Below, piece by piece: positions 24,944-36,657 of a DNA stretch of 64,000 nt; the stretch's first letter is position 1; each line of letters starts with the position of its first letter. Origin of the DNA: Eggerthia catenaformis OT 569 = DSM 20559 (GTDB lineage: Bacteria; Bacillota_I; Bacilli_A; Erysipelotrichales; Coprobacillaceae); assembly GCF_000340375.1 (NCBI RefSeq), contig NZ_KB446649.1, positions 126,339-190,338 on the forward strand, in the 5' to 3' direction. The position numbers were made by a program, and so were the translations under genes. Below the pieces are notes generated by a model. The model had not been told where the DNA came from. It saw only the letters and a list, made by a program, of their open reading frames with translations, and ran no database searches.

Positions 24944-26941
24944 TCATCTAAAGATATAATAATGCTTTCTATAATGAATAATAGTAATATTGGAATCTCT
25001 ATCTGTTCTTAGTGTCAGTATCCCCCTTTCTTTTAATCTTTTAAGAACCAATGACGAAGGATGGTGATATTTATTATTTCTACCTACACCTATCAATGCC
25101 GCTTTAGGATGTATCATTTCAAAAAGTGCAACACTGCTAGAATACTTTGAACCATGATGAGGAACTTTTAAAATATCTACATTTAAAGAACGATATTTAT
25201 TAACTAAAGCCTTTTCTACTTCACTTGATATATCACCGGTAAACAAATAATGAATATTAAATAATGTCATATAAAGAATATTACTCTTATCATTCTTTTC
25301 TTTTGATTTGGTTTCTACAGTTAAGCAGGATATACTAAAATCTTTCTTTTTCCTCTCTTTAAATGGTTTATCTATAACTTCTCTAACATCAAAATGTTTC
25401 TTTAAGGAATCCAACGCTCCGCTATGGTCATAATCATAATGAGATATAAAAACTGTATCTAATCTTTTAACTCCTCTACTTTTTAAATAAGGAATAACAC
25501 GATTTAAAGCAATATCATAATTCCTGTCACCTCCTGTATCTATCAGGTAGTTTCCCTGATCAAAAGGCAATCGTATAAATGTACAGTCTCCCTGCCCTAC
25601 ATCTATCATTGTTACTTCAGCATAAAACTTATAGTTAGAATAAAAATTAAAGATAATCAGTAATGATAAACAGCACAGTAAATGACGATGAATCGTCTTT
25701 TTTAACTGCTGTCTAATAATAATTTGTGCTAATAAAAAATAATAAATACCTATAAATAATAGATTAGGCTTTCCAAATATCATTTCATGACTTAAAGAAT
25801 ATGAACTTTTAAGAATAGAATCAAATATATTAATAAAAATTATTAATAGATACTGCACAAATGGTATAAATAATGACAATACTGTCAATAGATAAAAATA
25901 TTTTATAAAAGGCACTAATAGACATCCTAGAACAAATGAGAATGGATATATTGAATAATTAACACTTAATATAATAGGAATAGAGGACAGATATACACAA
26001 ACAAAAGAATATTTTAAATTTTTTGTCAGTAAGACTATCAAATAAATAAAATATGAGAATATAAAAGAAAGATTGAATAGAATAAATGGATTATATATTA
26101 ATGAAATCATCACTAACAAGGAAAGAAAATCAAGACTATTAAGATATTTTTTAAAATAATCATGGAAAAGCATAAAATAAGCTCTCCATAATGAAATATT
26201 ATAAGGAATAGAAAAAACATATATGCCCAATAAGAATCGAGTTAAAACAGATGCTTTCTTTTGGGAAAGCAGATAGCTTAAAAGATTATTTAAAATATTT
26301 GATAAAGCAGTAATATGCATTCCGCTTAAAGCAAATAAATGTACTATAGATAGACTAATCATCTTCTGATAATCTGATTCAAGATCATTATGTATACCTA
26401 AAAGAAATAGTTTCTGATAGCTGGCTATCTTAGGAGAAGATGATAAATGATCAACAATAATATGAATTAAGGATTTATGAGAAACTCTTTTAACAACGGA
26501 AACAAGCTTAGCTTTTGCTTTAATATTTAAAGATCTCAAATAGTATGTTTCATTAAAAAAATCAGTATTATTAATAGCTAATTGTTTTACTTTTAAAATC
26601 GCTTCATCGTAATAAGAGAACTTTTCTTTTGTATAAACCTTGATTTTTCCTTGTGATGTTTTTAAGACTATAAAATTTTCTTTAATATCAATTACTTTTC
26701 CTTTAATCAGATGATTCATATGTATATCATAGGATAGTGGACGAAATAAAAGTATTCCTATGAATAAAAGAATAATAATAACTGAATAATGAAGAAACTT
26801 AAGAAGAAAGAAACTATAGATGATTAAAATAAGATAAAAGACCGGATGATAAAATCGTGATAAAACACAAAGTATTGAAAAGACAGCATAATAAATAAGA
26901 TGATAGCTTAAAGGGATAGGTTGTTCCGATATTTTAAAAAT
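24944..26941 (-). CDS. comEC: Competence protein ComEC/Rec2 (non-standard start)
   Basis: Membrane channel for uptake of single-stranded DNA. From the first ATG (26719) the product has an OB-like N-domain, the competence membrane domain (SIVHLFALSGMHITALS near residue 143) and a C-terminal metallo-beta-lactamase-like domain (DVGQGDCTFIRLP, HYDYDHSGAL, PHHGS). The same frame is open back to 26959 and encodes two or three hydrophobic segments (YHLIYYAVFSILCVLS, VFYLILIIYSFFLL, VIIILLFIGILLF), the part expected ahead of the OB domain. That extension has no ATG, GTG or TTG. I place the start at the ATT at 26939-26941 as the best guess; ATA or ATC, or a -1 shift from comEA, are alternatives. Confidence 0.8.
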   Translation of the reverse strand: MFKISEQPIPLSYHLIYYAVFSILCVLSRFYHPVFYLILIIYSFFLLKFLHYSVIIILLFIGILLFRPLSYDIHMNHLIKGKVIDIKENFIVLKTSQGKIKVYTKEKFSYYDEAILKVKQLAINNTDFFNETYYLRSLNIKAKAKLVSVVKRVSHKSLIHIIVDHLSSSPKIASYQKLFLLGIHNDLESDYQKMISLSIVHLFALSGMHITALSNILNNLLSYLLSQKKASVLTRFLLGIYVFSIPYNISLWRAYFMLFHDYFKKYLNSLDFLSLLVMISLIYNPFILFNLSFIFSYFIYLIVLLTKNLKYSFVCVYLSSIPIILSVNYSIYPFSFVLGCLLVPFIKYFYLLTVLSLFIPFVQYLLIIFINIFDSILKSSYSLSHEMIFGKPNLLFIGIYYFLLAQIIIRQQLKKTIHRHLLCCLSLLIIFNFYSNYKFYAEVTMIDVGQGDCTFIRLPFDQGNYLIDTGGDRNYDIALNRVIPYLKSRGVKRLDTVFISHYDYDHSGALDSLKKHFDVREVIDKPFKERKKKDFSISCLTVETKSKEKNDKSNILYMTLFNIHYLFTGDISSEVEKALVNKYRSLNVDILKVPHHGSKYSSSVALFEMIHPKAALIGVGRNNKYHHPSSLVLKRLKERGILTLRTDRDSNITIIHYRKHYYIFR

Positions 26942-27378
26942 CTCTGATTCCCTATCCCTTTAATATTCTTTAAATCTTCTATCTTTTCAAAACAATGCTT
27001 TTTACGATATTCAATAATCTTGTCCGCCGTCTTTTCTCCTATCCCTTTAAGCATCATTAATTCTTTCTTTGTAGCATTATTTAATGAGATCATATGTTCT
27101 TGTTTTACAGGAAGATAATAGCTTTCTTCTGCATGTATTATCTTGTTCATATTAATGCTTTTTACACTGGCATTCTCTTTTATTCCTACCTTCTTTACTA
27201 AATCCTTCATAGTCATTCCTTCTTTAATAGGGATTTTCCCTGTCTGATTAAATGCTCCTTCAAGTGTCACTGTTAATTCTTTTGGCTTCTTATAATTTAA
27301 AGGTTCCGGCTTTCTCAGCGAATGAATAACAGAAAGAATAAACAATAGGATAAATCCTATTATCTGTATTTTTTTCAT
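26908..27378 (-). CDS. comEA: Competence protein ComEA (DNA receptor)
   Basis: Membrane-anchored double-stranded DNA binding protein of the uptake machine. 156 residues: an N-terminal membrane anchor (KKIQIIGFILLFILSVI), a SLBB-like domain (about 35-95, TVTLEGAFNQTGKIPI) and a helix-hairpin-helix pair (LNNATKKELMMLKGIGEKTA and LKNIKGIGNQRFLKY). The ATG at 27378 has AAGGAG 11 bp upstream; a TTG at 27381 is less likely. The last HhH residues are coded within the hairpin that leads into comEC. Confidence 0.93.
   Translation of the reverse strand: MKKIQIIGFILLFILSVIHSLRKPEPLNYKKPKELTVTLEGAFNQTGKIPIKEGMTMKDLVKKVGIKENASVKSINMNKIIHAEESYYLPVKQEHMISLNNATKKELMMLKGIGEKTADKIIEYRKKHCFEKIEDLKNIKGIGNQRFLKYRNNLSL
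26910..26961 (-). promoter_or_regulatory. 11-bp inverted repeat spanning the comEA-comEC junction
   Basis: AAAGGGATAGG (26961-26951 on the minus strand) pairs perfectly with CCTATCCCTTT (26920-26910); loop 30 nt. The 5' arm holds the only SD-like sequence for an upstream comEC start, and the loop holds TTTAAAA, a -1 slippery heptamer in phase with comEA. It could hide the comEC start until comEA is translated. Confidence 0.6.
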
Positions 27379-35895: not shown

Positions 35896-36657
35896 CTATG
35901 TTCTCAATTCTTCTGCAATATCTTGCCCCTTTACAACAAGCTTTGCTCCTTGATTAATCAGCATATTTGTTCCCTGATAACCATCAATACTGCAAGGAAC
36001 CGCAAAAATATCCTTTCCCTGCTCTAAAGCATAGCCAACTGTAATCATTGTTCCGCTCTGTTCTTTTGCTTCACAAACGAGAATCTGCTGTGAAAGCCCG
36101 GCAATCAAACGATTACGAATACGAAAATCTGATTTCACCGGTGCTTTCGCAAAAGGAATTTCACTTAATACACAATGCTCTTTTTTTAATGTTTTATAAA
36201 TATCATGATTTGACTTAGGATAGCCAAAATCAATGCCTCCTCCCAGTACTGCTGCCGTCTTTCCCCCATTACTGATAGCACTACGATGTGCTATGCTATC
36301 GATTCCAATAGCCATACCTGAAACAATCACATAATCATTGCAAACTAAATCATGTACTAATGATTGAGTAGATCTGATGCCATATGAACTAGGGTGTCTC
36401 ATCCCTATCACCCCAATTGTTTTCTTTTCCAGCAAACTGATATCTCCATAATAAAATAAAACAAATGGAGGATATCTTATCTCCTTTAATAAAGACGGAT
36501 AATCTTTAGAAAGAATGGTCGTATACTTGCACTTTAACTGTTCCAGATATCTTCTCTTTAATTTCTCATCAACCAATTCCTTATTTTTTAAAGCCTGATA
36601 GATTTTCTGATAATCCCCCTCATATTTACAAGCAAAATAAACAAGCATCTCTTCCAT
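35896..36657 (-). CDS. dprA: DNA-processing protein DprA
   Basis: Protects incoming single-stranded DNA and loads RecA during transformation. 253 residues with the Rossmann-type core: YPPFVLFYYGD near 85, IGVIGMRHPSSYG near 105, VSGMAIGIDSIAHRSA near 140, AVLGGGIDFGYP near 163, SEIPF and RNRLIAGLS near 190-210. Short compared with DprA proteins that carry an extra C-terminal winged helix. With comEA and comEC it suggests a transformation pathway. Confidence 0.94.
   Translation of the reverse strand: MEEMLVYFACKYEGDYQKIYQALKNKELVDEKLKRRYLEQLKCKYTTILSKDYPSLLKEIRYPPFVLFYYGDISLLEKKTIGVIGMRHPSSYGIRSTQSLVHDLVCNDYVIVSGMAIGIDSIAHRSAISNGGKTAAVLGGGIDFGYPKSNHDIYKTLKKEHCVLSEIPFAKAPVKSDFRIRNRLIAGLSQQILVCEAKEQSGTMITVGYALEQGKDIFAVPCSIDGYQGTNMLINQGAKLVVKGQDIAEELRT

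Follow-up and report, generated by a model that had tools for sequence, protein, structure and literature searches.

Initiation at near-cognate codons is a known mechanism, and no report of such a start in comEC or comGF was found in the open-licence literature that we searched. In S. aureus, the ccpN, cvfC1 and citZ genes have AUU or AUA starts that yield about 10% of the AUG level in poor medium, and an AUA start has also been reported for infC (PMC13009471); the accessible portion of that report contains neither the word comG nor the word competence. For Listeria, the available part of another study describes an ATC start of rnhC as experimentally confirmed, an infC gene starting with ATT, and comEC as one of 39 genes whose start codon varies, most of this variation being between canonical codons (PMC13068326). 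The same source describes an rsbW reporter with ATT for which fluorescence was undetectable and no more than a reduced Western signal was obtained (PMC13068326), a result that counts against an AUH start for comEC.

The comEC gene described here lies in a 64-kb window, by which we mean the whole stretch of DNA that was analysed. It overlaps comEA on the minus strand (Table 1) and is read in the -1 frame relative to comEA, as the initial annotation had stated and the junction alignment confirmed. The best NCBIfam match of the protein is ComEC_Rec2, although the score is under the cut-off of that model. A stop codon directly upstream of 26959 bounds the open frame, and the earliest ATG, GTG or TTG is at 26719; our frame scan thus agrees with the earlier reading at both positions. 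Eighty of the 671 codons of this frame precede any canonical codon, the corresponding value for other minus-strand frames in the window being 33 codons at most, and comEC is the sole long coding-strand frame in the window with such a start-less extension. The N-terminal membrane part of the protein, with 66 conserved residues that include hydrophobic helices, is encoded ahead of 26719. The window comEC is therefore a conserved frame without an ATG, GTG or TTG at its N-terminus; counted from the homologous start at 26917, it has 657 codons.

Table 1. Features of the comEA-comEC junction, and comGF loci with a start-less leader (SD pairing in kcal/mol)
Feature	Positions	Strand	Remarks
comEC open frame	24944..26959	-	stop codon included; Pfam Competence and Lactamase_B; NCBIfam ComEC_Rec2
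comEA	26908..27378	-	ATG 27378, TAA 26910-26908; HHH_3
First canonical ATG of comEC frame	26717..26719	-	without SD, +0.6
Candidate start ATT	26939..26941	-	-31 from comEA stop; SD pairing -6.6
SD-like AGGGA	26949..26953	-	7 nt before ATT 26941; within comEA GIG (helix-hairpin-helix) codons
Candidate start ATC	26915..26917	-	-7 from comEA stop, at family ATG site; SD pairing -3.5
TTTAAAA heptamer	26932..26938	-	in repeat loop; judged incidental
5' arm of 13-bp inverted repeat	26951..26963	-	
3' arm of inverted repeat	26908..26920	-	spans ATC and comEA stop
comGF without canonical leader start			L105, L126, L127, L129-L135, L140, L141
comGF without canonical leader start (continued)			L143, L145, L146, L148, L150, L154

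A ComEC search of 43 family genomes gave matches in 42, from which 30 loci were retrieved for comparison of the junction, an approach that the initial annotation had suggested. In 28 of the 30, the comEC ATG precedes the comEA stop by exactly 7 nt; the window and one other locus (L024, from G025) are the exceptions. The comparison revealed that at this site ATG has been replaced by ATC in the window; the ATC at 26917, which the initial annotation had not named as a candidate, thus lies exactly at the ancestral ATG site shown by the relatives. Read from 26917, the window protein begins (I)PLSYHLIYYA and those of relatives, for example, (M)PLSYHLIDYA, so that the N-terminus is conserved.

An order-wide survey provided 117 parsed comEC loci, outside which stand two loci with a disrupted comEC frame (L071 and L072, from G038 and G023), one unparsed locus (L112, from G184), and matches without retrieved regions. 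The two disrupted loci have kept the ATG at -7, and either decay or draft errors may account for their state. In 112 of the 117, a canonical comEC start lies in the interval from -68 to +2 relative to the comEA stop. The five start-less loci are the window, L024, and L100, L101 and L224, which belong to three species of one genus (G267, G268 and G275); their first canonical codon after the comEA stop is at +191, +166, +26, +134 and +26, respectively. The putative AUH start of comEC is not conserved within the family, 28 of the 30 family loci having ATG, whereas among the three species of another genus it is. In L024, comEC is in the +1 frame relative to comEA, whose C-terminus (IYFSCKK) also differs, a state that an indel reshaping the junction might have left; the best start candidate there is an ATC at -35 with an SD of -7.3.

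A contig search with a single ComEC protein found no relative, and the same search with an alignment as query gave 79 named loci, which were left out of the counts above, many of them duplicating genomes already counted. In 75 of these a canonical start is reached no later than +12 from the upstream stop, two are cut by the contig end, and two (L280 and L294) lack such a start. The upstream frame of L294 is not comEA-like, and L280, from an uncultured Bacilli bacterium, has a near-cognate ACG 29 nt before the comEA stop, at the site of TTG or ATG in six related loci, and no canonical start until +145. The nearest named relatives at the locus among the 79 are Sharpea porci and Kandleria vitulina.

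Two AUH codons in the overlap have an SD at start position, ATT 26941 lying in frame 24 nt upstream of ATC 26917. The SD pairing of the ATC is ordinary for family ATG sites, which range from -10.1 to +0.6 kcal/mol (n = 32 scored), and that of the ATT is weaker than the SD of comGF or infC in the same genome. In the survey, an AUH codon with SD pairing of -6.5 or stronger occurs in the open overlap of all five start-less loci but only in 9 of the 112 canonical ones (Fisher p 1.2e-5), with a cut-off picked after inspection of the data and with three of the five loci coming from sister species. Moreover, all four start-less loci whose comEC is in the -1 frame have an ATT open at -31, as does 1 of 101 canonical loci. 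Some AUH, mostly ATA, is open at -31 in 11 of these 101, and an open AUH at this place is therefore weak evidence by its presence alone. A comEC TTG or ATG at -29, just after the SD encoded by the GIG codons, is present in six further Bacilli loci (L288, L289, L300, L308, L315 and L318), and this GIG-coded SD is therefore evidently usable. On these grounds we infer that translation of comEC probably begins within the last part of comEA, at a near-cognate AUH codon, namely ATT 26941 and/or ATC 26917. The ATT is favoured only slightly. Of the two explanations first offered for the missing start, a rare start of the ATT/ATA type is thus the better supported, and the -1 frameshift fusion finds no support.

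The start-less comEC genes of G267, G268 and G275 show dN/dS values of 0.05-0.08 over the 44 codons that follow the comEA stop (dS 0.9-1.9, near saturation), and higher values, of 0.11-0.27, in the next 205 codons. Judged from these ratios, strong purifying selection acts on their N-terminal comEC codons. The first canonical codon in this genus is a GTG at +26 in two species and an ATG at +134 in one; because this codon differs between members of the genus and the stretch is conserved, the 44 codons should be translated from a non-canonical start at least in G268.

AUH starts are found elsewhere in the same genome. Its infC (L177, G000:C4:243007-243216) starts with ATC behind an SD of -10.6, and infC served as a positive control in the family, where all 25 parsed loci have ATT (21) or ATC (4), 5 of the 30 loci being unparsed. 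The comGF gene (L105:4407-4811, G000:C2:283406-283810) lacks a canonical start in its N-terminal region, where an ATT with an SD of -10.7 directly precedes the prepilin motif. The comGF leader is without ATG, GTG and TTG, and has AUA, AUU or AUC with SD pairing of -4.3 to -12.1, in 18 of 39 family loci, spread over nine genera (Table 1). The AUH codon is conserved, stands at the site of ATG or GTG in other genera, and its SD is often GGAGGTGA-like. A class-wide search with the Pfam ComGF model matched 29 of 296 genomes; this model is weak, and frequencies are given for the family. From these patterns, the AUH start looks like an established device in the competence genes of this family.

The junction also contains a perfect inverted repeat, which had been described as 11 bp long around the heptamer; its perfection and its position stand, and its measured length is 13 bp, with the heptamer in a 30-nt loop. 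When the local 250 nt were shuffled, a perfect repeat of at least 13 bp appeared in 1 of 1000 shuffles and one of at least 11 bp in 16 of 1000; the whole window has 17 repeats of at least 11 bp. The strand folds at 26880-26990 with -25.6 kcal/mol (z -2.7). All 13 positions of the arms pair in the window, versus 3-8 of the 13 aligned positions (mean 5.5) in 28 relatives. Compared with L009, the 3' arm of the window has three differences, each of which adds complementarity and one of which is the change from ATG to ATC. Template switching at quasi-palindromes is a known mutation mechanism, and the three changes have the pattern expected from it; changes that arose separately, or a hairpin favoured by selection, would fit equally. 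According to this scenario, the arms once formed a quasi-palindrome that was perfected by a template-switch patch (or by separate changes), with ATG becoming ATC, so that a mutation that makes a hairpin may have removed a start codon while the gene survived. With the hairpin in place, translation of comEA would open it, and ribosomes would initiate less often than at AUG, at ATT 26941 and/or ATC 26917, reaching a fraction of the AUG rate and keeping the level of ComEC low. A coupling of the comEC start to comEA translation is plausible in this arrangement.

Two rival explanations remain live, a recent loss of function and a sequencing error. In the first, the change from ATG to ATC would have stopped translation and the comEC frame would not yet have decayed. 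The canonical start is indeed gone, the RD/E codon that supplies GGGA in relatives is altered too in the window, and comEC may be decaying in the family, as it is frame-disrupted in G023 and G038 and without a match in G020. However, the 657-codon frame is whole and its invariant residues are retained, with 2 of 69 otherwise invariant columns altered in the window ComEC (0-5 in other loci), so that neither frame disruption nor invariant-residue loss marks it as a pseudogene. The competence pilus genes of the comG operon and dprA are open in this genome as well, and start-less comEC is under purifying selection in three other species, which together make a recent loss unlikely. Matches to DNA_processg_A (DprA-type) number two, at 35932-36546 on the minus strand of the window and at G000:C2:376072-376668. 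In the second, the ATC would be a base-call or assembly error, or a variant private to the sequenced clone, at 26915. ATC and ATG differ by a single base and one strain was compared, but the three differences of the 3' arm from L009 all go in the same direction and the canonical comEC start has been lost independently in two further lineages, and we give this explanation a slim chance.

Programmed -1 frameshifting on the heptamer T TTA AAA, yielding a ComEA-ComEC fusion, was dropped as the main reading after a census of the heptamer. It also speaks against a fusion that the C-terminus of ComEA, normally extracellular, would be placed ahead of ComEC. The initial annotation had correctly read TTTAAAA as T TTA AAA in comEA, placing it one position off, at 26939 instead of 26938. 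The heptamer is in frame within the overlap and comEC is in the -1 frame, as a frameshift would demand. In-frame T_TTA_AAA is, however, unremarkable here, as ten neighbouring genes with 2901 codons in all contain 8 copies, the comEA copy counted. The same TTTAAAA stands at -28 in three ATG-started loci (L020, L023 and L068), and of the four start-less loci in the -1 frame three are without it, so that its presence does not go with a missing start of the downstream gene; any in-frame slippery heptamer in the overlap occurs in 1 of these 4 versus 7 of 101 canonical -1-frame loci, and in the start-less L024 comEC is in the +1 frame. The hairpin, considered as a stimulator, was rejected for its location, since it encloses the heptamer and gives no block downstream of it. 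Y_YY.A_AA.R motifs are shift-prone in E. coli, but U_UU.A_AA.A is missing from the list of most efficient motifs in the accessible part of that work (Sharma et al., PMC4066793). Frameshifting keeps a low probability because AGGGA, which ends 10 nt upstream of the heptamer and is placed like an SD-type stimulator, could stimulate it. A shorter ComEC starting at ATG 26719, the first canonical codon and the choice expected of an automatic gene caller, is scarcely credible and was dropped, as this ATG has no SD, the 66 conserved N-terminal residues would be lost, and the ATG stands instead at -7 in 28 of the 29 remaining family loci.

If comEC is translated from an AUH codon, as we favour, a gene caller restricted to ATG, GTG and TTG would shorten ComEC by 66-74 residues, and would truncate or miss comGF in many family genomes. 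Both ComEC and ComGF belong to the natural-transformation machine. Because AUH starts with a fitting SD recur in competence genes, this pattern suggests that weak initiation may be a tolerated or selected way of keeping uptake proteins scarce. One may further speculate that in this family (the Sharpea/Kandleria neighbourhood) near-cognate starts gate the translation of the DNA-uptake genes as a class, which would link competence to the state of translation. This broader idea is a doubtful one; were it true, IF3 proofreading would keep infC (AUC), comGF (AUU) and comEC (AUU/AUC) of one genome at a low level, and all three would rise together under limiting IF3.

Set against known systems, the junction shares some features with each of them. 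In dnaX-type -1 frameshifting, an SD-like sequence precedes the slippery heptamer by about 10 nt, and the spacing is alike at comEA-comEC, where, however, there is no downstream structure and the heptamer is unlinked to the loss of the start. The AUU/AUC/AUA start of infC resembles the proposed comEC start in combining AUH with an SD, and is present in this genome as ATC, but AUH is found in all 25 parsed infC loci, whereas in comEC it is sporadic and its SD weaker. The genes ccpN of S. aureus and B. subtilis (AUA) and cvfC1 of S. aureus (AUU) likewise have an SD-backed non-canonical start of lower yield, and differ in being conserved across species, in their extended SD, in having been mapped by ribosome profiling, and in not being competence genes (PMC13009471). 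The rsbW mutants of Listeria monocytogenes (ATG to ATA or ATT) also lost a start within the overlap with an upstream gene and retained a lower, non-zero translation; these were selected in the laboratory, whereas the comEC change is in a natural genome (PMC13068326). Finally, the competence gene sigH of S. aureus resembles comEC in that its start region contains a perfect inverted repeat of 13 bp; the sigH repeat lies just upstream of a start codon in the 5' UTR (PMC3486894), whereas that of comEC is within the overlap with comEA and includes the ATC.
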